Shown here: one piece after another, positions 2,544-54,555 of the stretch
How the letters are laid out: the number at the start of each line of letters is the position of its first letter
Numbering within the stretch: the first letter of the stretch is position 1
Source of the DNA: a virus
Virus record (IMG/VR): IMGVR_UViG_3300044953_000352
Span: 1 to 64,000 of that record
Reading direction: 5' to 3' (one strand)
DNA length: 64,000 bases
Position numbers and translations under genes: made by a program
The notes under the pieces: model-generated
The model's database searches: none
What the model saw: the letters and a program-made list of their open reading frames with translations, nothing else
Told to the model about the DNA's origin: nothing

Positions 2544-2548
2544 TATTC

Positions 2549-3010: not shown

Positions 3011-3027
3011 TATTCAATAAATATCAT

Positions 3028-33957: not shown

Positions 33958-34614
33958 ATGACAATACAAATAGAAAAAAACGAAACATATACAGATATTA
34001 ATGTGTTGCCAAAAAAAGCAACAGAAAGATCTACTGGATGTGATATTGTAACCATAAGCGATCCAGAAATTGTTGGAGAAAAAACTGACACTGGATATAA
34101 AAGAATCGATTATATTCAATATAAAACTAATCTTAAATTAGCTGTTCAAAAAGAATCGACAGGATGGAATGGAACTTCACATGTTGAACTCATTGATTAT
34201 GATATTCTAGCATTTCCTCGCAGTAGTGTTAGTAAATATAATTTAATATTAGCAAACTGTATTGGTCTAATTGACGCAGATTATCGTGGAGAAGTTTTAC
34301 TTCGTTTTAAATATATCTGGCAACCAGAAGACTTTGATTTTTCAGAAAAATCTGTAATTGTAGGTACTCCAAATATTGACAAGGTTTATAAAAAAGGAGA
34401 TAAAATTTGTCAATTGAAAGCTACAAAAGTCGAAAATATAAATTTTGTATTAGTAGATAAATTGGATACCACTTCAAGAGGTGAAGGTGGATTTGGAAGC
34501 ACAAATAAACCAAATGTATCTGATTCAGTAATTGAATCTTGGAAGAAAAATCCGTTTGTTGCTCCTGAAAGAAAATATAGTGATTTAATAAAAGAAAAAG
34601 AAAAAAGTATATGA
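33958..34614 (+). CDS. dut: dUTPase
   Basis: Hydrolyses dUTP to dUMP and pyrophosphate, keeping uracil out of DNA and feeding dTTP synthesis. All five trimeric dUTPase motifs are present: STGCDI (I), FPRSSVSKYN (II), IGLIDADYRGEV (III), GDKICQL (IV) and RGEGGFGST (V). An insertion of about 30 residues lies before motif II, and the C-terminal tail extends about 35 residues past motif V. 218 residues. The stop overlaps the ATG of the next gene (ATGA). Confidence 0.93.
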   Translation: MTIQIEKNETYTDINVLPKKATERSTGCDIVTISDPEIVGEKTDTGYKRIDYIQYKTNLKLAVQKESTGWNGTSHVELIDYDILAFPRSSVSKYNLILANCIGLIDADYRGEVLLRFKYIWQPEDFDFSEKSVIVGTPNIDKVYKKGDKICQLKATKVENINFVLVDKLDTTSRGEGGFGSTNKPNVSDSVIESWKKNPFVAPERKYSDLIKEKEKSI

Positions 34615-35921
34615 GTAAACCTTTATGTGTATTACAAAGCCCACTTTTCACCCGTAGTGGATATGGCGACTGGGCAATGGCAATTGGAAAAAGTTTGTTG
34701 CGATACAACAAATATGATTTGTTAATTGCACCTACCCCTTGGGGAAATACTCCAAGAAAAATGTCTCTTGATGAATTTGATAAGAGCGACTCTGAAGCTA
34801 TTGAATTAGCAAATAGAGTTTTAAAGTCTCCGTTGAATAAACAACCAGACGTGTTTATACAAATTACTATTCCAAATGAATATCAACCAATAGGAAAATA
34901 TAATATTGGCATGACTGCCGGTATTGAAACTACAATTCCTCCCGGCGATTGGATTGAAGGAATGAATCGTATGAATCTTAATTTGCTTTTGAGCAATTTT
35001 GCAAAGGATGGATTTGTTAAAGCAAATTATATGAAACAATTCCAAGACGGTAGACAAGAAAAATTGTCAGTGGAAAAGCCAATGGAAGTTTGTTTATGGG
35101 GTGCGGATACTTCAATATATAAGAAAACAGATGAAAAAGTCGAAAGTGTTGATTCTATTTTAAGTACAATTCCAGAAAAATTTGCTTATTTGTTTGTAGG
35201 ACAATGGACTCATACCAATGGACTTTACAGTGATCGAAAGGACATCGGAAATCTTATCAAAGTATTTTGTTCTGCATTTAAAGACAGGAAAGGTTCACGT
35301 CCATGTTTATTATTAAAAACAAATGGAGTTAACTTTTCAAAAATTGATAAAGATGATGTTTTAAAGAAAATTAAAACTATACGAGACGAAGTTGGTGGTG
35401 ATTTGCCAAACGTTTATGTTTTACATGGCGAATTGAGTGATGTAGAAATGAACGCATTGTTTAATCACGATAAGGTCAAAGCGCATGTGAGTTTTACTCA
35501 TGGTGAAGGATATGGGCATCCATTATTACTTGCTTCATTAAGCGGAAAACCTATTTTTGCTCCAAATTGGAGTGGACATTTAGACTTTTTAAATTCTAAT
35601 TACTGTGTATTATTAAATGGTTCAGTTAAACCAATAGATCCCGCTTCCGTTAATCAATGGTTAATAAAAGAAAGTAGTTGGTTTTATGTTGTATATGGAT
35701 TGGCAGAAGATAAACTTAAAAACTTTTATTATTCACCAAGTAGTCTTTTAAAAGAAAACGCAGAAAAATTAAGATTAGAGAATGCGGAAAAATTTAGTTT
35801 GCAAGCTATGGACAAAGTATTTCATGGTTTATTAGATAGATACGTTCCAGAATTTGCGGTAGAAAAGAAAATCATATTGCCTAAATTAAAGAAAATTGAA
35901 TTGCCAAAAATAACTGTATAA
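34611..35921 (+). CDS. GT4-like glycosyltransferase, 436 aa
   Basis: GT-B fold: the N-terminal SPLFTRSGYGDWAMAIG is a Gly-rich acceptor-domain loop, and 'VSFTHGEGYGHPLLLASLSGKPIFAPNWSGHLDFL' is the donor-site loop with Glu. The middle ESVDSILSTIPEKFAYLFVGQW is the inter-domain strand. Full-length and intact, unlike the preceding split enzyme, with which it may share origin. ATGA overlap with dut. It opens the biosynthetic run. The sugar is unknown. Confidence 0.8.
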   Translation: MSKPLCVLQSPLFTRSGYGDWAMAIGKSLLRYNKYDLLIAPTPWGNTPRKMSLDEFDKSDSEAIELANRVLKSPLNKQPDVFIQITIPNEYQPIGKYNIGMTAGIETTIPPGDWIEGMNRMNLNLLLSNFAKDGFVKANYMKQFQDGRQEKLSVEKPMEVCLWGADTSIYKKTDEKVESVDSILSTIPEKFAYLFVGQWTHTNGLYSDRKDIGNLIKVFCSAFKDRKGSRPCLLLKTNGVNFSKIDKDDVLKKIKTIRDEVGGDLPNVYVLHGELSDVEMNALFNHDKVKAHVSFTHGEGYGHPLLLASLSGKPIFAPNWSGHLDFLNSNYCVLLNGSVKPIDPASVNQWLIKESSWFYVVYGLAEDKLKNFYYSPSSLLKENAEKLRLENAEKFSLQAMDKVFHGLLDRYVPEFAVEKKIILPKLKKIELPKITV

Positions 35922-35922
35922 T

Positions 35923-36597
35923 ATGAACGATATATTTTTATCATTTCTTGTTACATGTAAAAACGAAACTGAAACGTTGTTTCAACTATTACGGTTTCTA
36001 TCTAAATATACAGAAAATAATGAATGTATTATTCTTGATGATTACAGTGATAATCCACAAACACTTGCTATTATTAATAGTGCATACGATTCTAATCCAT
36101 TATTTTTTAAGGTACATCAACATAAATTAAATAATAATTATGGTGAACATAAAAATTATGGTAAGTCTTTATGTAAAGGAAAGTATATATTCCAAATTGA
36201 CGGAGATGAATTGCCTTCTTCATTTTTGATGGATTCAATTAAAGATATTATTAATTTAAATACTGACGTAGAATTATTTTGGGTTCCTAGAATTAATGAT
36301 TTCAACGGAGTTAAACCAGAACATGCAAATCAATGGGGATGGAGATTAACTTCTTACGAAAATAGATCAATTGTTAATTGGCCAGATCCTCAGAGTCGTA
36401 TATTTAAAAATCTTTCTCATATTTCATGGAAAAGAAAATTGCATGAAAAGGTAGAAGGTGCTAAAGTGTTCTCAATGCTTCCAGAAAGTTTTGAATTTGC
36501 ATTGCATCATAATAAAACTATTGAAAAGCAAATAGAAACTAATACGAGATATAATACTCAATTTACTGAAGAAGATAATAGAGGATTTAAATATTAA
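35923..36597 (+). CDS. GT2-family glycosyltransferase
   Basis: Short GT-A enzyme: 'SFLVTCKNETETL' then 'CIILDDYSDN' (GT2 strand and DDxSxD), and 'KYIFQIDGDELPSSFL' near residue 88, the Asp-Gly-Asp metal site. Family GT2, WaaE/beta-1,4-glucosyltransferase type. 224 residues, with 'ISWKRKLHEKVEGAK' near the end, a motif in many GT2 LPS enzymes. It lies 1 base after the GT4 gene and 4 bases before the RfbH-like gene. Confidence 0.85.
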   Translation: MNDIFLSFLVTCKNETETLFQLLRFLSKYTENNECIILDDYSDNPQTLAIINSAYDSNPLFFKVHQHKLNNNYGEHKNYGKSLCKGKYIFQIDGDELPSSFLMDSIKDIINLNTDVELFWVPRINDFNGVKPEHANQWGWRLTSYENRSIVNWPDPQSRIFKNLSHISWKRKLHEKVEGAKVFSMLPESFEFALHHNKTIEKQIETNTRYNTQFTEEDNRGFKY

Positions 36598-36601
36598 TAC
36601 T

Positions 36602-37921
36602 ATGATAGAAAATATTTTGTCAAATATTAAATCATTGATAAATGAAAAAAATAAAAACAAAAAATGGACTCCAAATGTTGATTGGGTGCAATATGCTGGT
36701 CCATTTTTTGATGAAAATGAATATATTGCCGCAATAAATTCTTTATTAGAAGGATGGTTAGTTTTAGGAAAAGATGCTATAAAATTTGAAACTACATTTC
36801 CATCTCAATTCAATAAAAAATACGGAATATTAACAAATAGTGGAAGTAGCTCTAATCTTATAATGATGTCTGTATTAACATCAAAAAGATTATATAATTT
36901 AAAAAAAGGAACCAAAGTTATTACTCCAATAGCTGGATTTCCTACAACTATAAATCCTATTTTTCAAGTTGGATTTACACCAGTATTTGTTGATATTGAT
37001 TTAGATACCCTCAATCTTAATTTGGATCAAGTAGAGGATGCTGCTAAAAAAGGAGCAAAAATTATTACATTTGCACATGTATTAGGAAATCCTCCTAATA
37101 TGGATCGTTTAATGGAAATCATTAAACAATATAATTTGATTCTTTTAGAAGATTGTTGTGACGCTCTTGGATCTACTTATAAAGAAAAACCTCTTGGTAG
37201 TTTTGGAGAATTAACAAGTTGTAGTTTTTATCCTGCACATCATATGACTATGGGTGAAGGAGGATTTGTTGCATGCAATACAGAAATACAAGAAATCATT
37301 GCTCGTAGTTTTCGTGAATGGGGACGTGGATGTTATTGTGTAGGTAAAAAGGCAAATTTATTAAAAAACGGATCTTGTGGAAAAAGATTTTCAAATTGGT
37401 TGCCAGAGTTACCAGATGAAATATTTGATCATAAATACGTATATGATGAAATTGGATATAATCTCAAACCGATTGAATTACAAGCATCTATTGGACTTGA
37501 ACAGATGAAGAAACTTCCTTTGATTCATCAAAAGAGAAAAGAAAATCATAAAAGATTAACTGATATATTTTATAAATATCAAGACTATTTTCATCTTCCA
37601 AAAGCAACGTTATATTCTGATCCAAGTTGGTTTGCATTTGCTTTAACTATAAAAGACAATGCGCCATTCAAGAGAAAAGATATAGTTGAATTTCTAGAAT
37701 CAAATAAAATACAAACTCGTCCATATTTTGCTGGTAATATTATGTTACAACCAGCATATACGGGATTGATTAATAAAAATGAAGTAATAACTAAATATCC
37801 AAATTCAAGAAAGGTAACAACCGACACGTTCTTTTTAGGAACAAGTCCTGTTATTACTATGGAACAATTGGATTATATACAAGAAAAAGTAGATGGGTTT
37901 TTTAAAAATAAAATTATATGA
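36602..37921 (+). CDS. rfbH: RfbH/E1-type CDP-4-keto-6-deoxyglucose 3-dehydrase
   Basis: PLP- and [2Fe-2S]-dependent dehydratase that starts C-3 deoxygenation in 3,6-dideoxyhexose synthesis (tyvelose, abequose, paratose, yersiniose). It reads as the aminotransferase fold, but the PLP Lys is replaced: SFYPAHHMTMGEGG at 208-221, as in the E1 family. The Fe-S motif is intact: Cys186, then 57 residues, Cys244-x-Cys246, then Cys259 (E1 has C-x57-C-x-C-x7-C). Its partner reductase E3 was not found in this window. 439 residues. Overlaps the next gene by 4 bases. Confidence 0.92.
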   Translation: MIENILSNIKSLINEKNKNKKWTPNVDWVQYAGPFFDENEYIAAINSLLEGWLVLGKDAIKFETTFPSQFNKKYGILTNSGSSSNLIMMSVLTSKRLYNLKKGTKVITPIAGFPTTINPIFQVGFTPVFVDIDLDTLNLNLDQVEDAAKKGAKIITFAHVLGNPPNMDRLMEIIKQYNLILLEDCCDALGSTYKEKPLGSFGELTSCSFYPAHHMTMGEGGFVACNTEIQEIIARSFREWGRGCYCVGKKANLLKNGSCGKRFSNWLPELPDEIFDHKYVYDEIGYNLKPIELQASIGLEQMKKLPLIHQKRKENHKRLTDIFYKYQDYFHLPKATLYSDPSWFAFALTIKDNAPFKRKDIVEFLESNKIQTRPYFAGNIMLQPAYTGLINKNEVITKYPNSRKVTTDTFFLGTSPVITMEQLDYIQEKVDGFFKNKII

Positions 37922-38874
37922 AATTATTATATATTACAGGATGCTTGGGTTTTATCGGATCTCATTTGACTCGTGCGTGTCTTAAAAAAGGATGGTATGT
38001 AAGAGGAGTAGATAAGGCAACATATGCTGCGGATTTAAATTTATTAAACGAATTTAATCAATATCCTACATTTAGTTTTAAGAGGGGAGATATTTGTAAA
38101 TTAGATCGTTTAGTAGATTGTGATTATTTTATTAATGTTGCCGCCGAAACTCATGTTGATAATTCTATTAGAAAAAGTGATGACTTTGTTTATTCTAATA
38201 TTAATGGCGTTTATAATATCCTAGAATTATTGAAAAATTATAATAAACAAGGATATGTAAAGCCAGTTTTATTACATTTTAGTACAGATGAAGTGTATGG
38301 AGATATAGAAGATGGTCAGCATTTTGAAACGGATATATTGAAACCAAGTAATCCTTATTCAGCAACAAAAGCATCAGCGGATCAATTAATTCTTGCATGG
38401 GCACGAACATATGGTATACAATACGTTATTGTTAGACCAACTAATAATTATGGAATAGGACAATATGTTGAAAAATTAATTCCAAAGACTTGTAAATATA
38501 TAAGTTTAAACAGAAAAGTGCCTCTTCACAATAATGGAACTCCAATACGTAATTGGCTTCATGTAGAAGATACTGCTAGAGGAATTATAACAATAATTGA
38601 ATCGGGTGTTAAAAACGAAATATTTAACATAGCAGGTGGATTTGAACAATCAAATATAGTAACTCTTCAGAAAATAGTAAAAGAATATTTTGGTAATTTA
38701 CCTGATGATTACGAAAACAAATATATTGATTTTTCTTTAACAAGAGTTGGTCAAGACATTCGATATGCATTAAATGATGACAAATTGAGAAGTCTAGGAT
38801 GGAAGCCTCAATGTGATTTTGATGTCGAATTAAAAAAGATAGTGAAGTATTATAAGGATAATTTTATATGGTAA
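37918..38874 (+). CDS. NDP-glucose 4,6-dehydratase (SDR; RfbB/RfbG-like)
   Basis: Removes water from an NDP-glucose to give the 4-keto-6-deoxy sugar needed by RfbH. Rossmann motif TGCLGFIGSH, 'STDEVYGDIEDG', and catalytic YSATKASAD (Tyr-x-x-x-Lys) match dTDP/CDP-glucose 4,6-dehydratases. The Asp/Glu pair in STDEVYG is the dehydratase signature. TGCLGFIGSH is a slight departure from the usual TGGAGFIGSH. 318 residues, normal. In this context CDP-glucose is the likely substrate (RfbG-like), but the sequence resembles the dTDP enzyme as well. Confidence 0.85.
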   Translation: MKLLYITGCLGFIGSHLTRACLKKGWYVRGVDKATYAADLNLLNEFNQYPTFSFKRGDICKLDRLVDCDYFINVAAETHVDNSIRKSDDFVYSNINGVYNILELLKNYNKQGYVKPVLLHFSTDEVYGDIEDGQHFETDILKPSNPYSATKASADQLILAWARTYGIQYVIVRPTNNYGIGQYVEKLIPKTCKYISLNRKVPLHNNGTPIRNWLHVEDTARGIITIIESGVKNEIFNIAGGFEQSNIVTLQKIVKEYFGNLPDDYENKYIDFSLTRVGQDIRYALNDDKLRSLGWKPQCDFDVELKKIVKYYKDNFIW

Positions 38875-40661
38875 AATATGATAATTCAAATTATTTGGCA
38901 GCAGACTTGATAGCAGATTTTCTCGAAGAGAAAGAAATTGATATAGCATTTGGTATTATAGGATCTGCCAACTCATATATTTTTGATTCTATATCTAGAA
39001 AAGGATATACTAAATTAATATGCATGCATCATGAACAAGCAGTTGTAATGGCAGCAGGTGCATATTATAGAACTACTGGAAAATTATGTGCTGCTATTGT
39101 AACCGCTGGAGCAGGTGCTTCTAATGCAATAACAGGAGTATTATGCAATTGGGCAGATTCTATACCTTGTATTGTAATATCAGGACAAGAATCAACTAAA
39201 TATGTCAATGAGCATTCTAACCTTAGAATGTTAGGTACGCAAGGATTTGATGTATCAAAAATGGTATCTGATATTGTAAAATTTAGTACAATTATTAAGA
39301 ATAAATCTGATATTTTACAATCATTAGAACAAGCATATTATATAGCATTAGAAGGAAGACCGGGACCAGTATGGATTGATATTCCAATGGATATGCAATC
39401 TGCAATACTTAATAAAGAAGATTTAAATAAATTTACCGTTCCAAATCAAGTTGTATCTGAATATGATTTACATGAGATAATAAAGTTAATCGAACAATCA
39501 GATAGACCATTAATTTTAGGAGGACACGGAGTACGTCTTTCTAAATGTCAGGATAAATTTAAGAGCTTAATAGAAAAATTAAAAATTCCCACTGTTTTAT
39601 CGTGGTCTGGAATTGATAATTTATCATTTGATAATCCATACAACTTTGGTTGTCCGGGTTTATATGGACAACGATGTGCTAATTTTATAATTCAAAATTG
39701 TGATTTATTAATTGTATTAGGAAGCAGACTTGCGTTACCACAAACTGGTTATAATATAAATAATTTTGCACCAAATGCAAAAATAATAATGGTAAATAAC
39801 GATGAAAATGAATTAAAAAAGCACAATAGATATGATATAAAAATCAAAGATGATTGTAAGAATTTTATAAATAAATTATTAGCTTACGACATAAATTCAT
39901 ATAAATCCAAGTGGTATGATCGTTGTTTGCAGTACAAAAATGAGTTTCCTTTAGTTGAAAAATCTCATTGGGTAGACAATAAAAATCATGATAATTCTTA
40001 TGTATTTATCAATGAACTATCAAAACTTCTAAAAGAAGATCATATTATTGTTATAGGACAAGGTACACCATTACCATGTTCACATCAAAGTCTTGAACTC
40101 AAATCAAAACAAATAGCATTTGCATCAAATGGTTTAGGAGAAATGGGAAATGGATTACCATCTGCTATCGGAGCAGCATTTGGTCGTAATAATAGAGAGG
40201 TTATCTTAATGGATGGTGACGGTAGTATGATGATGAACTTGCAAGAGTTACAAACTATTGTAAGTTATAATCTTCCTGTAAAAATAATAATCTTTAATAA
40301 TGAAGGTTATTTGTTTATAAAACACACACAAAAAATGTTATTTAATGGTCGATATACTGCGGTCAATAAAGAAACCGGCATGAGTTTACCTGAATTTAAA
40401 AAAATAGCATACGCATTTGATATACCTTATTTTAATACAAAACATAATACTGTGGAAGAATTTTTAAGTCATGATGGATATGCTATATTTGAATGTTATA
40501 TGAATCCAGAACAAGAATTCGCTCCAAAAGTAAAAGGTATTTTAACAAAGAATGGTATTTTACCACCACCAATTGAGGATATGTCGCCTTTATTACCGAT
40601 AGAAATTTTAGAAAAAAATATGTTGAAAGTAAATGAAACGTCATATAAAATCAGACAATGA
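38868..40661 (+). CDS. ThDP-dependent enzyme, acetolactate synthase/YerE-like
   Basis: Full three-domain ThDP enzyme. Catalytic Glu56 sits in ICMHHEQAVVMAAGAYYR; the pyrophosphate-binding motif GDGSMMMN lies near residue 450, with the NNEGY loop 27 residues on. 597 residues matches acetolactate synthase. It sits directly after RfbH and the 4,6-dehydratase, the position of YerE in CDP-yersiniose synthesis, where such an enzyme adds a two-carbon branch from pyruvate to a CDP-4-ketosugar. Other carboligases or decarboxylases fit equally well by sequence alone. Its 7-base overlap with the previous gene suggests coupling. Confidence 0.85.
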   Translation: MVKYDNSNYLAADLIADFLEEKEIDIAFGIIGSANSYIFDSISRKGYTKLICMHHEQAVVMAAGAYYRTTGKLCAAIVTAGAGASNAITGVLCNWADSIPCIVISGQESTKYVNEHSNLRMLGTQGFDVSKMVSDIVKFSTIIKNKSDILQSLEQAYYIALEGRPGPVWIDIPMDMQSAILNKEDLNKFTVPNQVVSEYDLHEIIKLIEQSDRPLILGGHGVRLSKCQDKFKSLIEKLKIPTVLSWSGIDNLSFDNPYNFGCPGLYGQRCANFIIQNCDLLIVLGSRLALPQTGYNINNFAPNAKIIMVNNDENELKKHNRYDIKIKDDCKNFINKLLAYDINSYKSKWYDRCLQYKNEFPLVEKSHWVDNKNHDNSYVFINELSKLLKEDHIIVIGQGTPLPCSHQSLELKSKQIAFASNGLGEMGNGLPSAIGAAFGRNNREVILMDGDGSMMMNLQELQTIVSYNLPVKIIIFNNEGYLFIKHTQKMLFNGRYTAVNKETGMSLPEFKKIAYAFDIPYFNTKHNTVEEFLSHDGYAIFECYMNPEQEFAPKVKGILTKNGILPPPIEDMSPLLPIEILEKNMLKVNETSYKIRQ

Positions 40662-41371
40662 ATTTAACTTTACAAACAATATCATCAACAATAATTTCCG
40701 AACTACTCGCAAATTCTCCATTAGATGGGGTGGTTTTGGACATGGAACATGGTAATTTTAATAATGAATCTTTATACGCTTGTATTCAAGTTATTACTTT
40801 ATATAAAAAACAATGTTTTGTTAGAGTCACCGATTTAAATAAAACCTTAGTTCGAATGTGTTTAGACGCAGGAGCAACAGGAATAATATTTTCAACAATC
40901 GAATCATATTCACAAGGTAAAGAAATAGTAGAGTTTTGTACATATCCTTTATTTAAAGGAAAAAGAGGATGTGGGCTTGTTAGAGAAAATCAATGGGGTG
41001 AATACAGTTTAGGTACAAATAAACCCCTAATAATAGGACAAATTGAAACACAAACAGCAGTGGATAATTTAGATTCTATTTGCACATGTGGATTTGATAT
41101 GTTTATTATCGGACCATATGATTTATCTAATAGTCTAAATTGTGTAGGAGACTGGCAAAATTTACTTTATAAAATGTATATAAGTAAAATATATAACACA
41201 ATTGATAATAAAAAAATTGGAATGTTTCTTCCTTCCAAAAGTAATATTACTGAATTTCTATCAAATAAAAAAAATAATATGTTCAGTCCGGCGTTAATTA
41301 TATGGGGAATGGACACTGAGTTAATCAAGTCCGGTATAAATTCCATAGCATATGATATACAAACTAACTGA
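40658..41371 (+). CDS. HpcH/HpaI-family aldolase
   Basis: TIM-barrel, metal-dependent aldolase of the pyruvate/2-oxo-acid class. Evidence: DGVVLDMEHGNFN (N-terminal strand with His, residues 24-36), 'CLDAGATGIIFSTIES' (loop), IGQIETQTAVDNLDS (metal Glu), and 'FIIGPYDLSNSLNCVGD' (metal Asp). 237 residues is slightly short (usual 250-265). ATGA overlap with the ThDP gene; overlaps its paralogue-like neighbour by 20 bases. Possibly makes or breaks a branched 2-oxo chain for the sugar. Confidence 0.85.
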   Translation: MNLTLQTISSTIISELLANSPLDGVVLDMEHGNFNNESLYACIQVITLYKKQCFVRVTDLNKTLVRMCLDAGATGIIFSTIESYSQGKEIVEFCTYPLFKGKRGCGLVRENQWGEYSLGTNKPLIIGQIETQTAVDNLDSICTCGFDMFIIGPYDLSNSLNCVGDWQNLLYKMYISKIYNTIDNKKIGMFLPSKSNITEFLSNKKNNMFSPALIIWGMDTELIKSGINSIAYDIQTN

Positions 41372-42104
41372 AAAATTAAAGGTTTTAGCAAATAACTATG
41401 GTGTTATAGGTATAAAACAGTCATTTGAAGATGAAGGAATCGAAATAAATGATTTAATCTTAGTAAGAAGATTAACCGATATTTGTAATATTGAATGTTT
41501 TGTAAAAATTGGTGGATGTGAAGCAAAGTCTGATATAAATAATTGTATAAAATATGGAGTTAATAACATCATTGCTCCTATGATAGAATCGTCGTTTGCC
41601 GTATCAAAAGTTACTGATATCACATCTAAATACAATAAACTCATAAATTCTTACATTGTTGTTGAAACCAAAACATCCTTTAATAATTTAGATAGCATTT
41701 TAGAAAAAGGATACAATACATTAAAAGGAATTGTTGTTGGTCGATCAGACTTTTCAAAATCATATTCAATCGATAAAACACAAGTTGATTCTGATTTTAT
41801 ATTTGATAAAGTAAAAACAATTTTACTCAAATCAAAAGAATATAATTATCAAACGACATTAGGTGGAAATATATCTAAACAAAGTGTTGATTTTATTAAA
41901 AAAATGTATTTTCAAAATTTACTTGATAAAATCGAGACTAGAAACATTGTTATTGATTTATCAAAAATTGATATTGAAAATTTAGAAAATGTAATTAAAT
42001 TAGCTATCGAATTTGAAATCGAATTAATAAAATATAAATCTACTTCTTTAACATTGACATTAAAAGAATCAAATGATAGAATAGAAGCATTAGTAAATAG
42101 ATAA
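41352..42104 (+). CDS. Aldolase/citrate-lyase-family protein (HpcH-like)
   Basis: A second, more distant barrel of the same superfamily. GVIGIKQSFEDEG opens, 'CFVKIGGCEAKSDIN' follows, then SYIVVETKTSFNNLDS (metal Glu) and 'GIVVGRSDFSKSYS' (metal Asp). 250 residues. Two such barrels in tandem with a 20-base overlap suggest a paired or heteromeric step. Less conserved than its neighbour, so substrate and activity are uncertain. Confidence 0.75.
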   Translation: MIYKLTEKLKVLANNYGVIGIKQSFEDEGIEINDLILVRRLTDICNIECFVKIGGCEAKSDINNCIKYGVNNIIAPMIESSFAVSKVTDITSKYNKLINSYIVVETKTSFNNLDSILEKGYNTLKGIVVGRSDFSKSYSIDKTQVDSDFIFDKVKTILLKSKEYNYQTTLGGNISKQSVDFIKKMYFQNLLDKIETRNIVIDLSKIDIENLENVIKLAIEFEIELIKYKSTSLTLTLKESNDRIEALVNR

Positions 42105-42109
42105 ATAAA

Positions 42110-43270
42110 ATGAACAAGAGATTTGAACAGTTACAAAACATTGTACACCGAGAAGAATGTTTTAAAACAATATGTGGTGCCGGAAATGAAGATAAAGCAC
42201 ATGTTAAAAAATTATCTTTTGTCTATACATTAGCAGGAACAAAAATATTAGACGTATCAGCTAATGTTGACGTTGTTAAAGCAGCAATGGAAGGTATTGA
42301 TTTAGCGTATGAGTATACCCATAAATTAAATGTTAAGATAGAAGATAGACCTTATATTATGGTCAGTGTAGGAATGCCGGGAGATCCTCACGTTAGAAAA
42401 TCTTTTATAAATGCAGATAAGTGCATTGGATGTACATTATGTATTCCTATTTGCCCAACTGATGCTATTCCTAAAGACTTTGTACAAAATCTAAATGTAT
42501 TTAAAAATTTAGGAGGAGTTTTTGATATCGAAGATCAATCAAAAGAAATTGTTATCAAAGATCTGTGTATAGGATGTGGCAAATGTAGTAGTATTTGCCC
42601 AAAGAATGATATTATCTCATATAGACACAATGCAAGAGAAATACATAAACTTTTACCGAAGTGTATGGAAGCCGGTGCAGAATTATTTGAACTTCATGCT
42701 GCGGTTGGAGAAGATGATATTACTCTTACAGAATGGTCAATAATCAATGAGATTAATTCCAATAATTATAATTCAATGTGTTTGGATAGATTAAATCTAG
42801 GAAACTTAAGATTTGAACATAGAATTAATGAGGCTAGAAAAATTGCTGGTAATCGTTTAATGATTCAAGCAGATGGATATCCAATGAGTGGTGGAGAAGA
42901 TGATTATAACACTACTTTACAAGCAGTTGCATGTGCTGATGTTGTCAATAAAAAGTTTAATATGCGAATTGACAAGAAACGTACAACCGACAAATTAGGA
43001 AAGCCAAAAATATCTTCCAAAAAAGTATATAAAAACATTAATGATGTAGATAATATTCCTATATTAATTTCAGGAGGTACAAATTCTTATAGTAAAGAAT
43101 TGGCAGAAAAGGCAGAAGTAAGAATTAATGGGGTATCTATAGGAACATTTGCGAGAGATTTAATTGAAAAATTTATAGTGCAACCAGATTTCTATGAAAA
43201 CGATGAACTTATTAAATTGGCATATGAAAATGCAAAAAATTTAATACAAATTAGTAATAAAAAAATATGA
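42110..43270 (+). CDS. LdpA-like iron-sulphur protein with two ferredoxin motifs
   Basis: 386 residues. The N-terminal domain ICGAGNEDKAHVKKLSFVY and 'TKILDVSANVDVVKAA' matches the LdpA family, iron-sulphur proteins first known from cyanobacterial circadian input. Then come two 4Fe-4S motifs: C105-x2-C108-x2-C111-x3-C115P and C153-x2-C156-x2-C159-x3-C163P. The C-terminal domain has LMIQADGYPMSGGEDDYNTT and 'PILISGGTNSYSKEL', also LdpA-like. It could donate electrons to the RfbH or radical SAM step, or act as an enzyme. ATG 6 bases after the aldolase; overlaps the HAD gene. Confidence 0.8.
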   Translation: MNKRFEQLQNIVHREECFKTICGAGNEDKAHVKKLSFVYTLAGTKILDVSANVDVVKAAMEGIDLAYEYTHKLNVKIEDRPYIMVSVGMPGDPHVRKSFINADKCIGCTLCIPICPTDAIPKDFVQNLNVFKNLGGVFDIEDQSKEIVIKDLCIGCGKCSSICPKNDIISYRHNAREIHKLLPKCMEAGAELFELHAAVGEDDITLTEWSIINEINSNNYNSMCLDRLNLGNLRFEHRINEARKIAGNRLMIQADGYPMSGGEDDYNTTLQAVACADVVNKKFNMRIDKKRTTDKLGKPKISSKKVYKNINDVDNIPILISGGTNSYSKELAEKAEVRINGVSIGTFARDLIEKFIVQPDFYENDELIKLAYENAKNLIQISNKKI

Positions 43271-43647
43271 AACAACTTGTTATAGCAGTCGATTTTGATG
43301 GTACGTTGTGTGAATACGCATTTCCTAAAATAGGAAATCAAACAGAACAACAAAAAAACTTGTTAGATTTATTGATCGCACTAAAACAAAAAGGTCATTA
43401 TCTAATATTATGGACAAACAGAGGGGACACAGATGAACTAAAATGTTTATCTGAAGCAATTGAATGGTGTAAAAACCAAGGATTAGAATTTGATCAAGTT
43501 AATAACAATAATCCCGAACGTGAAGCTAATAAAAAATCAGGATACAGTAGGAAAATATTAGCAGACTATTATATTGATGATAAATGCTTAGAATTTGGAA
43601 ATGTATTGGCTAGAACAAAGACTTTAGAGTTTTTATCCAATTTATGA
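43267..43647 (+). CDS. HAD-type phosphatase (BT0820-like)
   Basis: A small HAD hydrolase: IAVDFDGTLCE (motif I, Asp nucleophile), 'LILWTNRGD' (motif II), a Lys in the middle, and 'ADYYIDDKCLEF' (motif III). 126 residues with a minimal cap, as in phage and Bacteroidota HADs. Probably dephosphorylates a sugar phosphate or nucleotide. Both ends overlap neighbours by 4 bases (ATGA). Confidence 0.85.
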   Translation: MKQLVIAVDFDGTLCEYAFPKIGNQTEQQKNLLDLLIALKQKGHYLILWTNRGDTDELKCLSEAIEWCKNQGLEFDQVNNNNPEREANKKSGYSRKILADYYIDDKCLEFGNVLARTKTLEFLSNL

Positions 43648-44549
43648 ATATATTAGTAACAGGAGGAAATGGATTCTTAGGTTCAAATACAATTAAGAAA
43701 TTAATAGAAAAGAATCATAATATATTAATAACATCTAAAAATAAAACCAACTTAACTTATTTAAAAGATGATACAAAAATAATACCCTGTTATATAAACA
43801 ATATATGTTATCATATTGATGAAATTAAAAATTTTTCTCCTGATGTAATAATATTTTTTGGTTGGCACGGAGGAAATAATTATAAAGATACAAATATACT
43901 TGATCAGTTTCATCAAAACGTTCCGCCACATATAACTTTTTTAGAACAAATAAGTACATTTTCTAAGAAACCTAAAATTATAGGTGTTGGAAGTTTTTCA
44001 GAATATGGAGATTACAATATTCCTATCAACGAAACTTGTATTGAAAATCCAACAAGTTTATATGGATTATCAAAGTTGACGTTCAAAAAATACAGTGAAA
44101 TGTTTTGTAAACAACACCAAATGCAATGGACGTGGATACGACCATGTTTCATATATGGACCAAATGATATTCAAACAAGAGTAATTCCATCAGTAATTAA
44201 AAAAGCATTAAATAATGAAAAAATTCATTTAAATGAATGTAATACAATATTAGATTATCTATACGTTGAAGATTTTGTTAATTTTTTATATAAATTAATT
44301 GACTTAAACTGTGAAGGCGTATATAATATTTGCTCAGGAAAACAATATCAACTACAATCTATAATTAATCAAATTTGTGCATTATCTAATAGTAATTCTG
44401 AAATTATTTTTGATAAATCATTAAATAGAAAAGGACTAAATAATTTTATTTGTGGTGATAACACTAAGATTCAAAATACAACAGGTTATTTTGAATTACA
44501 TAATATACACGATGGTTTGCTAAAGACTATAAATTATTATAACCAATGA
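43644..44549 (+). CDS. NAD(P)-dependent SDR epimerase/reductase (RfbJ/YerF-like)
   Basis: MNILVTGGNGFLGSNTIKKL (Rossmann motif GxxGFLG), 'VGSFSEYGDYNIP' (catalytic Ser region) and 'SLYGLSKLTFKKY' (Tyr-x-x-x-Lys). 'WTWIRPCFIYGPNDIQTRVIP' is common to CDP-abequose synthase-like 4-reductases. In the yersiniose logic this could be the final ketone reductase (YerF-like). 301 residues. Confidence 0.8.
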   Translation: MNILVTGGNGFLGSNTIKKLIEKNHNILITSKNKTNLTYLKDDTKIIPCYINNICYHIDEIKNFSPDVIIFFGWHGGNNYKDTNILDQFHQNVPPHITFLEQISTFSKKPKIIGVGSFSEYGDYNIPINETCIENPTSLYGLSKLTFKKYSEMFCKQHQMQWTWIRPCFIYGPNDIQTRVIPSVIKKALNNEKIHLNECNTILDYLYVEDFVNFLYKLIDLNCEGVYNICSGKQYQLQSIINQICALSNSNSEIIFDKSLNRKGLNNFICGDNTKIQNTTGYFELHNIHDGLLKTINYYNQ

Positions 44550-45466
44550 ATTATAAAATAACATGTCATTTAATGCCGTGGGAATTAGATTTTGCTTTGT
44601 TGTCGTTTACACAATTAAAAAAATCAAAATATCATCTAAATTCAAATGATACAGTTTATATTGATGTTACTTTAAATCTTTCAAATTATATATTCGATTG
44701 GAGTTCTAGTAAACTACCAAAAGAATTCTTTATAGATAAGTTTACATCATTACAGCCATTATTAAATGATTATAAATGTAGATTTAACATTTATACTGGA
44801 GATGAAATCTACGGCGGATTAAATACAATGCTATATGCTACAGAACCACATATAGATCATTATATGGATTTGAATCCAGATATGTATTTTACAGAGCATT
44901 TATTATGCATGCTTATAGAATCTTCAAAAGTTATAAAAAATAGATTTTTCATAGTAACCCCACAAATTCCAAAATTATGGGATAACACATGGGACATCAT
45001 ATCAAACTATCATTATAATAATATATCATATCAAGATCATAATAAAATTGAGGTTTATGATGTTAGAAATTATATGAAAACAAATGATCTTGAAGTAAAA
45101 TTATCATCAATCAATACGTTTAAATTTGCTGGATGGATGGATTTATACAATAAAGAAACATGGGAAAATTTTATTGTACAAGACGGATGGCAAGGATACG
45201 GAGGATGTGATTACTACGCAATGTTATTATGTAATACAGCCAAGGTTAACGGAGTAGATGTTCAACAATACGTATTAGAAAATCAAATCACGACTGAATA
45301 TAATTATGGTCATATGAATTCTACCGGATATACCAAGTATTATAAAAAATTTTTGGCACTAAAAGATATACCAAATCAACGCGAATATTTTAACTCTAAA
45401 TTAAATGAATATCTAAACTATGGAGTTAGAAATTTAATAAATAAAAATATTATAAAATTGTTATGA
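44546..45466 (+). CDS. Putative glycosyltransferase (GT-A-like), 306 aa
   Basis: MNYKITCHLMPWELDFALLSF at the start, then 'HIDHYMDLNPDMYFTEHLL' near residue 110, an Asp-x-Asn-x-Asp site like GT-A metal sites, and 'GGCDYYAMLLC' later. No confident family. It is between an SDR gene and a GT10-like gene, with ATGA overlaps on both sides. Glycan transfer is inferred. Confidence 0.5.
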   Translation: MNYKITCHLMPWELDFALLSFTQLKKSKYHLNSNDTVYIDVTLNLSNYIFDWSSSKLPKEFFIDKFTSLQPLLNDYKCRFNIYTGDEIYGGLNTMLYATEPHIDHYMDLNPDMYFTEHLLCMLIESSKVIKNRFFIVTPQIPKLWDNTWDIISNYHYNNISYQDHNKIEVYDVRNYMKTNDLEVKLSSINTFKFAGWMDLYNKETWENFIVQDGWQGYGGCDYYAMLLCNTAKVNGVDVQQYVLENQITTEYNYGHMNSTGYTKYYKKFLALKDIPNQREYFNSKLNEYLNYGVRNLINKNIIKLL

Positions 45467-46338
45467 AGTTATTTTCAAATTTTAGACCAGAAAGTTGTCA
45501 TACATATGACAAAGTAAAAAAGGTATGTGAAAACAAACCTGTTACTATATTTTATGACTATATACCAAAAAGCATAAATGAACTAAATATAAATCCATAT
45601 AATTTTATAATTTTGGTTGAACCAGATGAATTTTTCGGAATGCAATCATGGGTAAGACAAAATCATCATCTATTTACTGGAATTTTAACATGGAATGAAA
45701 AGCTATTCAAAGATTGTCCAAATGCAATCTTTTTTCATTATATTGGTGATGGTGGCGCAGGAAATGTTAAACATAATTATTTAGAAGATTTTAATACACA
45801 ATATCCAAATAAAGAGTTTGAAATTAGTTTTTTATGTGGAGCAAAATCACTAGTTCAAGGACATAAATTTAGGCAAGAAATATATAAAATTGGAGATAAA
45901 ATAACAATCCCAAAAAAATGGTTTTATACATTACCTGATTTTGATGCAGAAAACTTTAAAAAAGGTGGAGTAGGAAGACCAGATGATATATGGATACAAA
46001 AACAAATTTGTTATCAAAAGGCAATGTTTCATATAGGAGTGGAAAATGTTTATTATAATAACTGGTGTAACGAAAAGATTTGTGATGCATTTGCAACAAA
46101 AACAGTTCCTGTATATTGGGGATGTCCTAATTTAGGAGATTTAGGTTATGATGAAAGAGGAATAATTAGATTTAATTCAACCGATGAATTAATTGAAAAA
46201 GTAAATAAATTAACTCCAGAGGATTATACTAATAGATTACCTTATGTAGAATATAATTATCAATTGATTAAACATTATCGATTTGAAGATGTAATTGCGA
46301 GAATTTTTAAAGACTTTATAGAACAAAATAATATATGA
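45463..46338 (+). CDS. GT10-like fucosyltransferase
   Basis: Near residue 205 it reads WCNEKICDAFATKTVPVYWGCPNL, the diagnostic C-terminal donor motif of alpha-1,3/4-fucosyltransferases (K-x-x-D-A-x-x-x-x-x-VPVYWG). N-terminal half: 'SFLCGAKSLVQGHKFRQEIY', the GT10 Rossmann strand. 291 residues. Donor is probably GDP-fucose, consistent with Gmd at 980; the usual GDP-fucose synthase was not seen in this window. Confidence 0.85.
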   Translation: MKLFSNFRPESCHTYDKVKKVCENKPVTIFYDYIPKSINELNINPYNFIILVEPDEFFGMQSWVRQNHHLFTGILTWNEKLFKDCPNAIFFHYIGDGGAGNVKHNYLEDFNTQYPNKEFEISFLCGAKSLVQGHKFRQEIYKIGDKITIPKKWFYTLPDFDAENFKKGGVGRPDDIWIQKQICYQKAMFHIGVENVYYNNWCNEKICDAFATKTVPVYWGCPNLGDLGYDERGIIRFNSTDELIEKVNKLTPEDYTNRLPYVEYNYQLIKHYRFEDVIARIFKDFIEQNNI

Positions 46339-46877
46339 AACCTACTATAGTAAATAATATAAGCAATATAAAAGATTTGACTGTATTAAAAATAGATTCT
46401 TTCTATGATTATAGAGGAGAAAACATACAATCTTATGACTCTACAGAATATAAAGAGTTAATAAACAATATTGAATTTACTACTGATTCGTTTTCGTTTT
46501 CTACAAAAAATGTTCTTAGAGGATTTCATGGTGATACACAATCTTGGAAATTAATTCAATGCATTAGAGGAACAGTTTATTTTGCTGTAATTGATTTGAG
46601 ACCCAATTCTCCAACATACGAGAATGTATTTACATGTACATTAAGTGATAAAAACCGCTGGCAAGTATTAGTTCCAAATGGTTGTGTTAATGCACATCTA
46701 TGCATGTCTGATGATTGTATTTTTTCTTATAAACTATCACATGGATATATTTCAATTGATAAACAGTTACATGTATTTTGGGATGATAGTAAATTTTTTC
46801 TTAAAATTAAATGGCCAATACAATTATCTCCAATTGTATCTCACCGAGACAACTCATTTCAGTTCAGTGTAATATAA
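46335..46877 (+). CDS. dTDP-4-dehydrorhamnose 3,5-epimerase-like (RmlC)
   Basis: Cupin fold with 'DSFSFSTKNVLRGFHGDTQSWKLI' (RmlC His in LRGFH), 'CIRGTVYFAVIDLRPNSPTYE' and 'VPNGCVNAHLCMSDDC'. These are the RmlC core motifs; the catalytic His of RGFH is present, while the usual Tyr region (YxxxxxHxI) is altered. 180 residues, normal. Could be a 3,5- or 3-epimerase for a 4-ketosugar nucleotide. No RmlD was confidently seen. Confidence 0.8.
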   Translation: MKPTIVNNISNIKDLTVLKIDSFYDYRGENIQSYDSTEYKELINNIEFTTDSFSFSTKNVLRGFHGDTQSWKLIQCIRGTVYFAVIDLRPNSPTYENVFTCTLSDKNRWQVLVPNGCVNAHLCMSDDCIFSYKLSHGYISIDKQLHVFWDDSKFFLKIKWPIQLSPIVSHRDNSFQFSVI

Positions 46878-47381
46878 ATGAAACTCATAGTCACAGTATT
46901 AGAGCAAGAATTTCCATTTAGTAATAAATTTAATATCTTATATACAGGTGTTGGAAAAATTAATGCAAGTATAATTTATTAGAATATTTAAACAGTCATA
47001 ATAACGTAGATACTATTATAAATGTTGGAACTGCCGCTGGTATAAATTGTAAAAGAAATACAGTATTATCATGTGGTAAGTTTATTGAAGGAGATTTGGA
47101 TTATCCAAGTTATACTCTTGATCCTATTATAGTTGATCCTAATTTAAAACAATTAGCCACGTCTGATTCATTTCAAACATCTTTACCAAATAGAATGTGT
47201 AATTGTATTGATATGGAGGGCATGCATTTGCAAAAATTTGTAAAATAAAGAAAATAAATTTTTTTGTTTTAAATATATATCAGATATAATAAGAGAACAA
47301 AATCAAGAAGATTCTTGGTTAGAAAACTACAAAAATGGTCGATTTCTTCTTAAAGAACATGTTATAAAAGTATATGAATAA
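46878..47381 (+). pseudogene. Broken nucleoside phosphorylase/MTAN-like gene (three frameshifts)
   Basis: Concatenating three shifted frames gives one protein: MKLIVTVLEQEFPF...ILYTGVGKINASIIY, then INVGTAAGINCKRNTVLSCGK and 'CNCIDMEGMHLQKFVK', then 'YISDIIREQNQEDSWLENY'. TGVGKINA, GTAAG and DMEG are nucleosidase/phosphorylase signatures (5'-methylthioadenosine/SAH nucleosidase type). Each break needs one base added. The repaired frame ends at 47381, overlapping the next ATG by 8 bases. A decayed or mis-sequenced gene of about 168 residues. Confidence 0.7.
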
Positions 47382-48318
47382 AGTTTTAATTACTGGCGGG
47401 GCAGGATATTTAGGCTCTGTTTTAACAGAAACACTATTAAATGAAGGATATATAGTTACTATACTTGATAGTTTATTATATAAACAATTATCATTGAGTG
47501 GTTTTTGTAATAATAAAAATTTTAATTTTATACTAGGTGATGTTAGAGATAATGTATTATTAGAAAAGCTAGTTAATGAAAATAATATTATTATACCACT
47601 TGCCGCTATTGTTGGAATGCCAGCATGCAAAGCAAATCCTCAAGCAACAATTGATATTAATTTAAATCAAATTAAAAATATTATTAAGTTTGCTAAAAAC
47701 GATCCCACGAAAGAAATCATCTTGCCAAATACAAACAGTCAATATGGATCGTCAACCGAAATTATAACAGAAGAAAGTCCATTTAAACCTTTGTCTTTGT
47801 ATGCTGAAACGAAATGCGATGCTGAAAAGGCATTATTAGATTCTCACAACGGTATTGCTTTAAGACTCGCAACTGTTTTTGGAATGTCTTATAGAATGAG
47901 AATGGATTTGTTAGTAAATGATCTTGTTTATAAATCTATAACAGATGGTTATTTAGTGCTATTCGAATCGCACTTCATTCGTAACTACATACACGTTCGT
48001 GATGTGGCCAATACATTTTTATTCATGATCAATAGATACAATCAATGTAATAACTCAGCATATAATGTTGGATTGACAAGTGCTAACTGTAATAAACTAG
48101 AATTGGCAGAAACTATCAAAAAGTTTGTTCCGGAATTAGTTATCGTTCAAAATGAATTCAAAAAAGACCTTGATCAACGTAATTACAAAGTATCAAATGC
48201 AAAATTAGAATCTTTAGGGTGGTCCGCAAAAAATTCTCTTGAAGACGGTATCCAAGAATTGCTAAAAGGATATCAAATGATTGTAAAATTTAAAAATAAA
48301 GATTTTACTAATTTGTAA
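47374..48318 (+). CDS. NAD-dependent sugar epimerase/dehydratase (SDR)
   Basis: MNKVLITGGAGYLGSVLTETLLNEG (Rossmann motif), 'IIPLAAIVGMPACKANPQ', 'PNTNSQYGSSTEIITEES' (catalytic Ser/Thr region) and 'SLYAETKCDAEK' (Tyr-x-x-x-Lys). It is close to GalE/UDP-glucuronate epimerase-like SDRs. 314 residues. In this cluster it could prepare a heptose or hexose precursor. The exact reaction is unknown. Confidence 0.85.
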   Translation: MNKVLITGGAGYLGSVLTETLLNEGYIVTILDSLLYKQLSLSGFCNNKNFNFILGDVRDNVLLEKLVNENNIIIPLAAIVGMPACKANPQATIDINLNQIKNIIKFAKNDPTKEIILPNTNSQYGSSTEIITEESPFKPLSLYAETKCDAEKALLDSHNGIALRLATVFGMSYRMRMDLLVNDLVYKSITDGYLVLFESHFIRNYIHVRDVANTFLFMINRYNQCNNSAYNVGLTSANCNKLELAETIKKFVPELVIVQNEFKKDLDQRNYKVSNAKLESLGWSAKNSLEDGIQELLKGYQMIVKFKNKDFTNL

Positions 48319-48319
48319 T

Positions 48320-49282
48320 ATGGATAAAAAACTTTTGGTTATTTATAATATTTGCGGAATTAAACGCAATAACATTGAAATGTGGGTCAATCATTTAACC
48401 GACATTCTAAATCAAAATTATAGCAATTTTATTGTAGCAGTTTCAGGCTGTATTGTAGCTGAAGAAGCTAAATCACAACTTATAGAATTAAAAAATAAAT
48501 ATAAAAATTTAGTGTTTAATTTTACCGAAGAAAAGTTGCCTGTTAACATTACTTTTAATCATACTGCTCAAGTTTGTACAAATAAATTTGGAATATTTGA
48601 TGGTTATATGTATGTTGCGTCTGATGTTAAATTTGGTAACGATCAAGAAGTTTTGAAAAAAATGTCTACACTACATTTTAATTCAAACAGCGGAATGACA
48701 TATGCAATGGTAGATAATGATCATGGATTAGATGGATGGTATAAAGAATGTTGGGAAGAACTAAATACCCTATTAGAAACAGATCATTTTTGTATTAATA
48801 TTGGAAAAACTGCAAACATGCATGTTATTTTATTTGATAAAGACATTTATATCAAATACGCAAATAAAATTGTTCCTAATATTTTTGCATCTCATTGTAC
48901 TGAAACTACTTATACCTATTTGACTGCTGCAATAAATAAAAAAGTTACAGTACATAATAAAACTGTTATGTTAAAACATATTGGATTTGCAGATAGTCAT
49001 AGTGTTGGATTTATGGATGAAATTGGATGGAATCATAAAGTTGCATGGAAACATTTATTCAAATCTAAAATACCAGTTGAAGATAGATTATTATCAAATG
49101 AAGCAAAAAATGTAGGGTTTGGTTATGTAGATTTTTATGGCGGATTTTCTCATTCTTCAGAGTTATATGATGATAATGAAAATCACAAAAATCCAGAAAA
49201 TCTTTTTAAATTCTTAAAAGACGCATTATATCTTTCAGAAGACGAATTTAACTACAATCAAATTTCTTACAATCTTATTTAA
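48320..49282 (+). CDS. Glycosyltransferase, GT2-like
   Basis: KKLLVIYNICGIKRNNIEMW at the start (GT-A strand 1), 'YSNFIVAVSGCIVAEEAKSQ' (strand 2), and 'GIFDGYMYVASDVKFGND' near residue 95 (Asp-x-x-Phe-like acidic site). 320 residues. The family is not sure. It lies 1 base after the epimerase gene and 10 bases before the radical SAM gene. Confidence 0.6.
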   Translation: MDKKLLVIYNICGIKRNNIEMWVNHLTDILNQNYSNFIVAVSGCIVAEEAKSQLIELKNKYKNLVFNFTEEKLPVNITFNHTAQVCTNKFGIFDGYMYVASDVKFGNDQEVLKKMSTLHFNSNSGMTYAMVDNDHGLDGWYKECWEELNTLLETDHFCINIGKTANMHVILFDKDIYIKYANKIVPNIFASHCTETTYTYLTAAINKKVTVHNKTVMLKHIGFADSHSVGFMDEIGWNHKVAWKHLFKSKIPVEDRLLSNEAKNVGFGYVDFYGGFSHSSELYDDNENHKNPENLFKFLKDALYLSEDEFNYNQISYNLI

Positions 49283-49292
49283 ATAAACTTAT

Positions 49293-50831: not shown

Positions 50832-50837
50832 TTTTCT

Positions 50838-51443: not shown

Positions 51444-51445
51444 TT

Positions 51446-51982: not shown

Positions 51983-51984
51983 GT

Positions 51985-52947: not shown

Positions 52948-52949
52948 GT

Positions 52950-53372: not shown

Positions 53373-53377
53373 ATAAT

Positions 53378-54553: not shown

Positions 54554-54555
54554 TT

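Follow-up and report, generated by a model that had tools for sequence, protein, structure and literature searches.

The locus examined here raises the question of what sugar, if any, a virus would build with a compact row of carbohydrate genes that it carries. The window, a stretch of 64,000 nucleotides, was taken from IMG/VR virus record IMGVR_UViG_3300044953_000352 (79,239 bases, which may be a fragment), and its positions 36602 to 44549 are taken up by eight open reading frames on one strand, overlapping or abutting. An earlier note had read this row as a candidate for a complete pathway, new in phage, for a branched 3,6-dideoxy sugar similar to CDP-yersiniose, whose pathway in Yersinia pseudotuberculosis (CDP-yersiniose A) comprises RfbF, RfbG, E1, E3, YerE, and YerF. 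The gene order given there, from RfbH/E1 to the SDR, agrees exactly with the ORF positions and the Pfam/NCBIfam families. These searches uphold the families of all eight ORFs, among which RfbH is the only one passing its NCBIfam equivalog cut-off. The row and its neighbours are as follows.

34611..35921, + strand, glycosyltransferase-like protein, upstream (phrog_2170, PHROG glycosyltransferase, 39 bits)
35923..36597, + strand, GT2-type glycosyltransferase (PF00535, 45 bits)
36602..37921, + strand, RfbH/E1, predicted PMP-dependent 3-dehydrase for an NDP-4-keto-6-deoxy sugar (NF011936)
37918..38874, + strand, RmlB-like (dTDP-type) NDP-glucose 4,6-dehydratase (TIGR01181, PDB matches, motifs)
38868..40661, + strand, YerE-like ThDP enzyme (JanthE score, tree clade, motifs)
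40658..41371, + strand, Ald1, HpaI/YfaU-type class II pyruvate aldolase (PF03328, 53 bits)
41352..42104, + strand, Ald2, divergent pyruvate/PEP-type TIM barrel (PF03328, 27 bits)
42110..43270, + strand, LdpA-like protein with two 4Fe-4S motifs (Fer4 and LdpA domains)
43267..43647, + strand, HAD phosphatase (BT0820-like), paired with the LdpA-like protein (NF046079, 96 bits, cut-off 165)
43644..44549, + strand, SDR1, extended SDR (PF01370, 116 bits)
44546..46338, + strand, two conserved proteins of 306 and 291 aa without a Pfam match
46335..46877, + strand, RmlC-like 3,5-epimerase (PF00908, 128 bits; TIGR01221, 117 bits, cut-off 156)

The order RfbH-RmlB-ThDP-Ald1-Ald2-LdpA-HAD is found again in other viral contigs at 50 to 85% protein identity, and dN/dS values across all eight genes are 0.05 to 0.27 against the nearest viral contig (L002), indicating that the row is not a chance assembly. 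The surroundings recur as well: homologues of the glycosyltransferase-like gene lie 5' of the module in L012, L017, and L022, the GT2-type gene is again upstream in L008, L017, and L022, and the 306-aa and 291-aa proteins are frequent neighbours of the module in other viruses. The RmlC-like epimerase may serve this pathway or a different dTDP sugar. Phage-family genes identified in the record are PolA, DnaB, UvsX, and ribonucleotide reductase; capsid genes are not among them. Judged from its gene families, the product of the row is very probably an unusual sugar bearing an additional carbon branch.

In a PDB sequence search, the best solved relative of the ThDP enzyme was JanthE of Janthinobacterium sp. 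HH01 (PDB 8rph to 8rpj), which was matched over nearly the full length with 524 bits (8rph) and was followed by AHAS II with 276 bits. JanthE served as the characterised YerE-like reference in both score and tree comparisons, and the two enzymes share a clade with support of 100/99. The catalytic Glu56 lies in HHEQA, and the GDGS motif is intact; it differs here from JanthE, which has CDG, and the same distinction follows linkage among the viral enzymes, with CDG in the DmpFG-linked and GDG in the LdpA-linked ones. The highest-scoring NCBIfam models are acetolactate synthases, which would suit an enzyme of that type working in amino-acid metabolism amid mixed sugar genes. Every one of these models, however, falls far short of its cut-off, the JanthE score is about double that of any acetolactate synthase, the acetolactate synthases fall outside the 100/99 clade, and the gene is repeatedly linked with RfbH and RmlB; an acetolactate synthase of central metabolism is thus rejected by score and tree as a very improbable identity, and the proposed YerE-like assignment is sustained. 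Such an enzyme is expected from its sequence to decarboxylate a 2-oxo acid and to add the acyl carbanion to C-4 of a 4-keto sugar, and its occurrence with RfbH/E1 supports C-branching of a 4-keto-3,6-dideoxy sugar.

The RfbH/E1 identity was likewise confirmed by the curated cut-off (NF011936, 473 bits, cut-off 423), by a cysteine cluster (Cys186-X57-Cys244-X1-Cys246-X12-Cys259), in which the final spacing is X12 and that of E1 is X7, and by AHH where the PLP lysine would sit, His replacing Lys as in the best PDB match, 3bcx (338 bits). The 4,6-dehydratase is, by its scores and motifs, of the dTDP (RmlB) type: it reaches 305 bits with the dTDP model TIGR01181 (below the cut-off of 365) versus 68 with the CDP model, all of its best ten PDB matches are dTDP/TDP-glucose 4,6-dehydratases, and the motifs STDEVYG (TDE triad) and YSATK are present. 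At least 80 viral contigs carry a related (YerE-like) ThDP enzyme, and we examined the flanks in 80; an RmlB-type gene lies within 6 kb of the YerE-like gene in 58 of them and an RfbG-type gene in none. The row shares with the CDP-yersiniose A pathway an E1/RfbH dehydrase, a YerE-like ThDP enzyme, and a short-chain dehydrogenase, but it is viral, has additional aldolase, LdpA, and HAD genes, and carries an RmlB-type gene in place of RfbG (CDP-glucose 4,6-dehydratase). RfbF and E3 were not seen in the window, and the 79-kb record contains neither an RfbF/RmlA-family nucleotidyltransferase (PF00483) nor an E3-type reductase (PF00175); the record is possibly incomplete, however, and both activities could come from the host. 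With these genes absent from the record and the dehydratase RmlB-like, the words "CDP" and "complete" in the original proposal are unsupported. Characterised relatives of RfbH act on a CDP sugar, so that its pairing with an RmlB-type partner leaves the nucleotide assignment unsettled, which counts against the best reading given below, as does the absence of PF00483 and PF00175 genes from the record.

Beside the YerE-like gene lie genes predicted to make a hydroxylated 2-oxo acid as donor: Ald1 is HpaI/YfaU-like, and relatives of the locus have DmpF and DmpG as the predicted donor genes. DmpF and DmpG, an acylating acetaldehyde dehydrogenase and a 4-hydroxy-2-oxovalerate aldolase, make 4-hydroxy-2-oxovalerate. 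They lie near the YerE-like gene in 55 of the 80 viral contigs, and the Ald1/Ald2/LdpA/HAD set of the window in 5. JanthE accepts 4-hydroxy-2-oxovalerate (PMC12188165), and, according to excerpts of PMC12247030, 4-hydroxy-2-oxo acids are the preferred donors of ErwE, with a similar preference seen in MMAR_2332. These counts and precedents lend support to the previous suggestion that the extra aldolases signify a longer branch. The branch of caryophyllose is 1,3,4,5-tetrahydroxyhexyl (excerpts of PMC5706390), and by our own reasoning it would fit a 2-keto-3-deoxy acid donor. The synthesis of caryophyllose (Mycobacterium marinum, MMAR_2332) and erwiniose (Pectobacterium atrosepticum, ErwE) resembles the window in its YerE-like enzyme, the hydroxylated 2-oxo acid expected, and the long branch on a 3,6-dideoxyhexose, a likeness drawn from descriptions in excerpts of PMC12247030 and PMC5706390, where the LdpA-HAD module is not described.

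A plain yersiniose-type product, in which pyruvate donates a two-carbon acetyl branch and the aldolase, LdpA, and HAD genes make an unrelated sugar acid, would agree with the preference of YpYerE for pyruvate (excerpts of PMC12247030) and with some L110-type viral loci consisting of RfbH-like, YerE-like, and SDR genes without an aldolase. Yet aldolase-type genes are found near the YerE-like gene at 63 of the 80 viral loci and at several bacterial ones (5 of the 17 viral loci where none was seen are incomplete), and YerE and a CMP-transferase never occur together at LdpA-HAD loci, as if they consumed one product; this explanation is consequently held to be unlikely. The reading that we favour, with a probability of roughly 0.7, is that the cluster would make a 3,6-dideoxy sugar that bears a long hydroxylated branch at C-4 and is more similar to caryophyllose or erwiniose than to yersiniose.

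Two HpcH-type aldolases had been listed initially, and this description holds for Ald1, an ordinary HpaI-type enzyme. Its best PDB match is 2vws, a 2-keto-3-deoxy sugar aldolase (71 bits), alignments place the active-site set of HpcH/HpaI class II aldolases (D..EH, R, and metal-binding E and D), and it is expected to make a 4-hydroxy-2-oxo acid. Ald2, on the other hand, is divergent: E105 and D133 in its metal-ligand motifs are invariant, and it has an invariant residue set of its own, but the HpcH/HpaI set is not complete in the alignment, with no evident counterpart of the His. No useful sequence relative was found in the PDB; the nearest folds of its model (pLDDT 93) are SbnG, pyruvate kinase, and HpaI (Z 19-20), and it is probably a second C-C lyase in donor synthesis.

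The LdpA-like protein resembles LdpA, an Fe-S protein of the cyanobacterial clock, at the family level and in its two 4Fe-4S motifs; unlike it, the protein is linked to sugar genes without a clock context, and it fails the equivalog threshold of the clock protein (NF045992, 141 bits, cut-off 450). Its model is a TIM barrel carrying an inserted ferredoxin, and the fold matches listed (RPE, DERA, FBA, and TrpA-like barrels) are non-diagnostic because the fold is common. An FMN-type barrel was set aside on these listed matches, although one could still be accommodated. The protein is paired with HAD, which keeps its DFDGT motif and has a dN/dS of 0.055, in all 23 viral loci with LdpA. This pair adjoins a YerE-like enzyme (14 loci) or a CMP-transferase (8 loci) and never both, which points to a sugar-like 2-oxo acid as the probable product. 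Since an RfbG-like gene, RfbH, and LdpA are consecutive in L040, we considered LdpA as the electron donor of RfbH in place of E3; this was rejected on account of the constant HAD partner and of the eight RfbH-free loci with a CMP-transferase. The ferredoxin protein had also been taken as a sign of a longer branch, a view that can be refined: the pairing with HAD and the replacement of YerE by a CMP-transferase elsewhere assign the LdpA-like barrel to the donor branch and not to E1 reduction, and the modelled protein would be a donor-module enzyme.

L027, L029, and eight viral contigs have the module next to a CMP-transferase and no YerE there, which could also mean that the module makes an ulosonic acid used separately and merely travels with dideoxy-sugar genes in viral glycan islands. 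Against this, the record of the window lacks a CTP_transf_3 gene, and the 14 LdpA loci with a YerE-like gene have no CMP-transferase in the flanks examined, so we consider it rather doubtful. More tentatively, and at somewhat under even odds, Ald2, the LdpA-like barrel, and HAD may constitute an undescribed route to a 2-keto sugar acid in viruses and some bacteria, coupled either to CMP activation (an ulosonic-acid-like sugar) or to YerE-like branching of a dTDP-dideoxy sugar, which would make the clock protein LdpA a relative of a carbohydrate enzyme.

From the families, catalytic motifs, ThDP clade, conserved linkage, and purifying selection observed in sequence, we infer the reactions, nucleotide, exact donor, and location of the sugar. 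The favoured branched-sugar pathway would begin with conversion of host dTDP-glucose to the 4-keto-6-deoxy sugar by the RmlB-like enzyme, followed by removal of the 3-hydroxyl by RfbH with electrons from some, probably host, donor. Ald1, Ald2, the LdpA-like Fe-S TIM barrel, and HAD would supply a 4-hydroxy-2-oxo (2-keto-3-deoxy sugar-type) acid, probably via a phosphorylated intermediate, which the YerE-like enzyme would decarboxylate, joining the acyl unit to C-4 to give a tertiary alcohol. SDR1, in which the motif YGLSK is present, is a candidate for reducing the new ketone in a YerF-like role, and the nearby glycosyltransferases could place the sugar on a host-envelope or virion glycan. L004 has LdpA and HAD with both Ald1 and Ald2 missing, and loci with a variant ThDP enzyme are without Ald1, so the roles of Ald1, Ald2, and LdpA are not fixed; this counts against the best reading, as do the 17 of 80 viral loci in which no aldolase was seen and the commonest SDR of related loci (c6), which does not occur in that form in the window.

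YerE-like enzymes are known for the branched sugars of bacterial envelopes. The claim of novelty in phage stands for the annotated phage collection, where the LdpA-like protein had no match and the ThDP enzyme matched distant acetolactate-synthase-like genes only, but not for metagenomic viral contigs, which often carry related pathways. In cultured cyanophages, too (e.g., Synechococcus phage S-H68), an RfbH-like gene lies close to genes annotated as dTDP-glucose 4,6-dehydratase and epimerase; in S-H68, however, RfbH identity is about 41%, and a YerE-like enzyme is not annotated in the stretch compared. A plasmid search gave no match at E 1e-100, and among 398 genomes sampled from one phylum the starting genome alone had LdpA relatives at E 1e-30. 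Our literature search found no publication dealing with YerE-like enzymes or branched sugars in phages, and in excerpts of a review viruses are mentioned only as a still unexplored source of YerE-like enzymes (PMC12247030).

The genes of this row are best read as a putative viral pathway of the caryophyllose/erwiniose kind that includes a new donor module. YerE-like enzymes with interchangeable donor genes in at least 80 viral contigs point to exchange of the aldolase set as the apparent means by which viruses vary the branch, and these swappable parts seem to decide its composition. Testable predictions of branch structure could thereby be drawn from gene content. The loci also offer new enzymes for making chiral tertiary alcohols, as well as a so far uncharacterised family of Fe-S TIM-barrel enzymes whose functional context is strong, and they bear on viral remodelling of host or virion glycans. 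Two bacterial loci hold RfbG, RfbH, DmpF, DmpG, and YerE together, and in further bacterial loci YerE is paired with NeuB or Ald2.

The module that the earlier note had described was recovered as eight genes on a single strand (36602 to 44549), with neighbors overlapping or abutting, in the order RfbH, RmlB-like 4,6-dehydratase, YerE-like ThDP enzyme, two HpcH-type aldolases (Ald1 and Ald2), LdpA-like protein, HAD, and SDR. All eight are under purifying selection (dN/dS of 0.05 to 0.27 against the related locus L002; the ratios are rough, with high synonymous change). The 79,239-base record encodes a phage-type PolA, a DnaB-like helicase, a UvsX-like recombinase, and a ribonucleotide reductase, and a tRNA search found none; because structural genes were not identified, the viral label rests on the IMG/VR classification and these replication genes.

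The same gene order is found in other viral contigs, and the key finding is that the segment following the ThDP gene is interchangeable. In three related loci (L013, L016, and L022), this segment consists of an acetaldehyde dehydrogenase (PF09290; DmpF) and an HMGL aldolase with a DmpG communication domain, a type of pair that makes or cleaves 4-hydroxy-2-oxovalerate in known metabolism. A wider scan returned at least 80 viral contigs with a YerE-like gene, which are mutually related, so that the counts are not independent events. Within 6 kb of that gene, 55 of the 80 listed contigs carry DmpF and DmpG, 5 carry Ald1, Ald2, and LdpA, 1 carries Ald1 alone, 2 carry Ald2 alone, and 17, including 5 truncated contigs, carry neither aldolase set; RfbH-like genes were counted in 50 and RmlB-type genes in 58 of the 80, and RfbG-type genes in none. 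Some of the 17 aldolase-free loci, typified by L110, have immediately consecutive genes for an RfbH-like protein (below the RfbH cutoff), a YerE-like enzyme, and an SDR, a row that would fit a pyruvate donor and is possibly a minimal yersiniose-like viral cassette. The YerE-like enzyme of L110 (4846 to 8546) and similar loci has a CDG motif. Upstream of the module in the related locus L011, the stretch from 2263 to 4188 encodes a protein of 641 aa that combines cupin and nucleotidyltransferase domains; it is similar to proteins in two related contigs and could supply an NDP sugar there.

The earlier assignment of the ThDP enzyme as YerE-like, weighed against a grouping with acetolactate synthases, was borne out. 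The enzyme matches the characterized lyase JanthE with 524 bits versus 276 for acetolactate synthase II, and a maximum likelihood tree, whose JanthE and AHAS rows came from the printed alignment and thus lack short terminal stretches, places it in a clade with 100/99 support, which also contains JanthE, related viral enzymes, and two bacterial enzymes and excludes the acetolactate synthases. The ThDP motif tracks the donor module: among the listed matches, it is CDGG in 49 of 49 DmpFG-linked enzymes with a readable motif and GDGS in all 5 LdpA-linked enzymes. The variant ThDP gene of L005 (7444 to 9200) is broken into two ORFs, by either a sequencing frameshift or a genuine break.

With an alignment of the viral LdpA proteins as the query, a scan returned 23 viral contigs, all with HAD beside LdpA; 14 have a YerE-like gene, 8 have a CTP_transf_3-type CMP-transferase, 1 (with its flank cut) has neither, and none has both (Fisher P = 1.8e-5, relatedness ignored). 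The CMP-transferase form also occurs in two bacterial MAGs (L027 and L029), although L029 may itself be viral, being nearly identical to the viral contig L093. In gut Gastranaerophilales and similar MAGs (L030 to L054), distant LdpA relatives adjoin HAD, RmlA, RmlB, RmlC, RfbH(-like), or CMP-transferase genes, which suggests that the family to which the cyanobacterial clock protein LdpA belongs includes sugar enzymes. Together, these neighbors suggest that the LdpA-HAD unit makes a sugar-like 2-oxo acid that is either CMP activated or decarboxylated by the ThDP enzyme.

Ald1 is similar to class II aldolases of the YfaU/HpaI type, whose active-site residues it conserves. Ald2 has hardly any match at the sequence level; the nearest folds to its confident predicted model (pLDDT, 93) are those of citrate synthase SbnG, pyruvate kinase, and HpaI (Z, 19 to 20), all of them enzymes of the pyruvate/PEP barrel type, to which Ald2 would belong by predicted fold. 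The LdpA-like protein is predicted to be a TIM barrel (mean pLDDT of 73, ferredoxin portion poorly modeled), with two 4Fe-4S motifs following its third strand and RPE and DERA-type barrels, a common fold, as the closest matches (Z, about 17). HAD has a DFDGT motif. JanthE accepts 4-hydroxy-2-oxovalerate (PMC12188165), and ErwE is reported to favor 4-hydroxy-2-oxo acids, with a similar preference for MMAR_2332 (PMC12247030). Caryophyllose carries a 1,3,4,5-tetrahydroxyhexyl branch (PMC5706390); by our reasoning, this branch would arise by addition of a 2-keto-3-deoxy acid with decarboxylation, followed by reduction of the resulting ketone. The module fits this scheme, for which we infer the nucleotide, donor, and final glycan. 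Bond-by-bond roles of Ald1, Ald2, and LdpA are not fixed, since the loci that have the variant ThDP enzyme lack Ald1 and one related locus (L004) lacks both aldolases.

RfbH passes the cutoff of the RfbH model (473 bits against 423), and its best match among solved structures is the E1 dehydrase 3bcx. Like 3bcx and unlike the His-to-Lys mutant 3bb8, it retains the two histidines of the PLP-lysine site, and its cysteine pattern is Cys-X57-Cys-X1-Cys-X12-Cys. For the dehydratase, the dTDP-glucose 4,6-dehydratase model gives 305 bits (below the cutoff of 365) and the CDP-glucose model only 68; its top ten solved relatives are all named dTDP- or TDP-glucose 4,6-dehydratases, and it has the TDE triad that marks the dTDP type. 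PF00483, PF02348, and PF00175 gave no matches in the 79-kb record, which may be incomplete; a small cytidylyltransferase-like protein is encoded at 52950 to 53372.

Of 369 genomes sampled from the class to which bacterium G020 belongs, 5 have a YerE-like match at an E value of 1e-100. Two bacterial loci contain nucleotidyltransferase-like, RfbG, RfbH, DmpF, DmpG, and YerE genes; the dehydratase of these bacteria is thus of the CDP type, in contrast to the dTDP type in the viruses. Another locus has NeuB between RfbH and YerE, and one has Ald2 near YerE; in a further genome, G022, YerE, HAD, and Ald2 are adjacent, and a different contig of this genome carries genes for RfbG-like, RfbH, and LdpA proteins. 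YerE is thus repeatedly paired with an aldolase or a NeuB-type synthase.

The window has a second sugar-type cluster at 47374 to 57419, with the following features:

Within 47374 to 57419, SDR and B12-binding radical SAM protein
50838 to 51443 and 51446 to 51982, PDH-E1-like ThDP enzyme as two small ORFs
Within 47374 to 57419, heptose-kinase-like GHMP kinase and cytidylyltransferase-like protein
Within 47374 to 57419, second DegT/RfbH-like enzyme and FkbM methyltransferase
Within 47374 to 57419, L-2-hydroxyglutarate-oxidase-like protein (above the curated cutoff)

PDH-type ThDP enzymes are another class that makes branched sugars, and it is therefore possible that this cluster encodes a second branching pathway. 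In the viral contig L014 (15812 to 21700), homologs of second-cluster genes (RmlC, DegT2, the split ThDP pair, and SDR2) adjoin the first module on the opposite strand.
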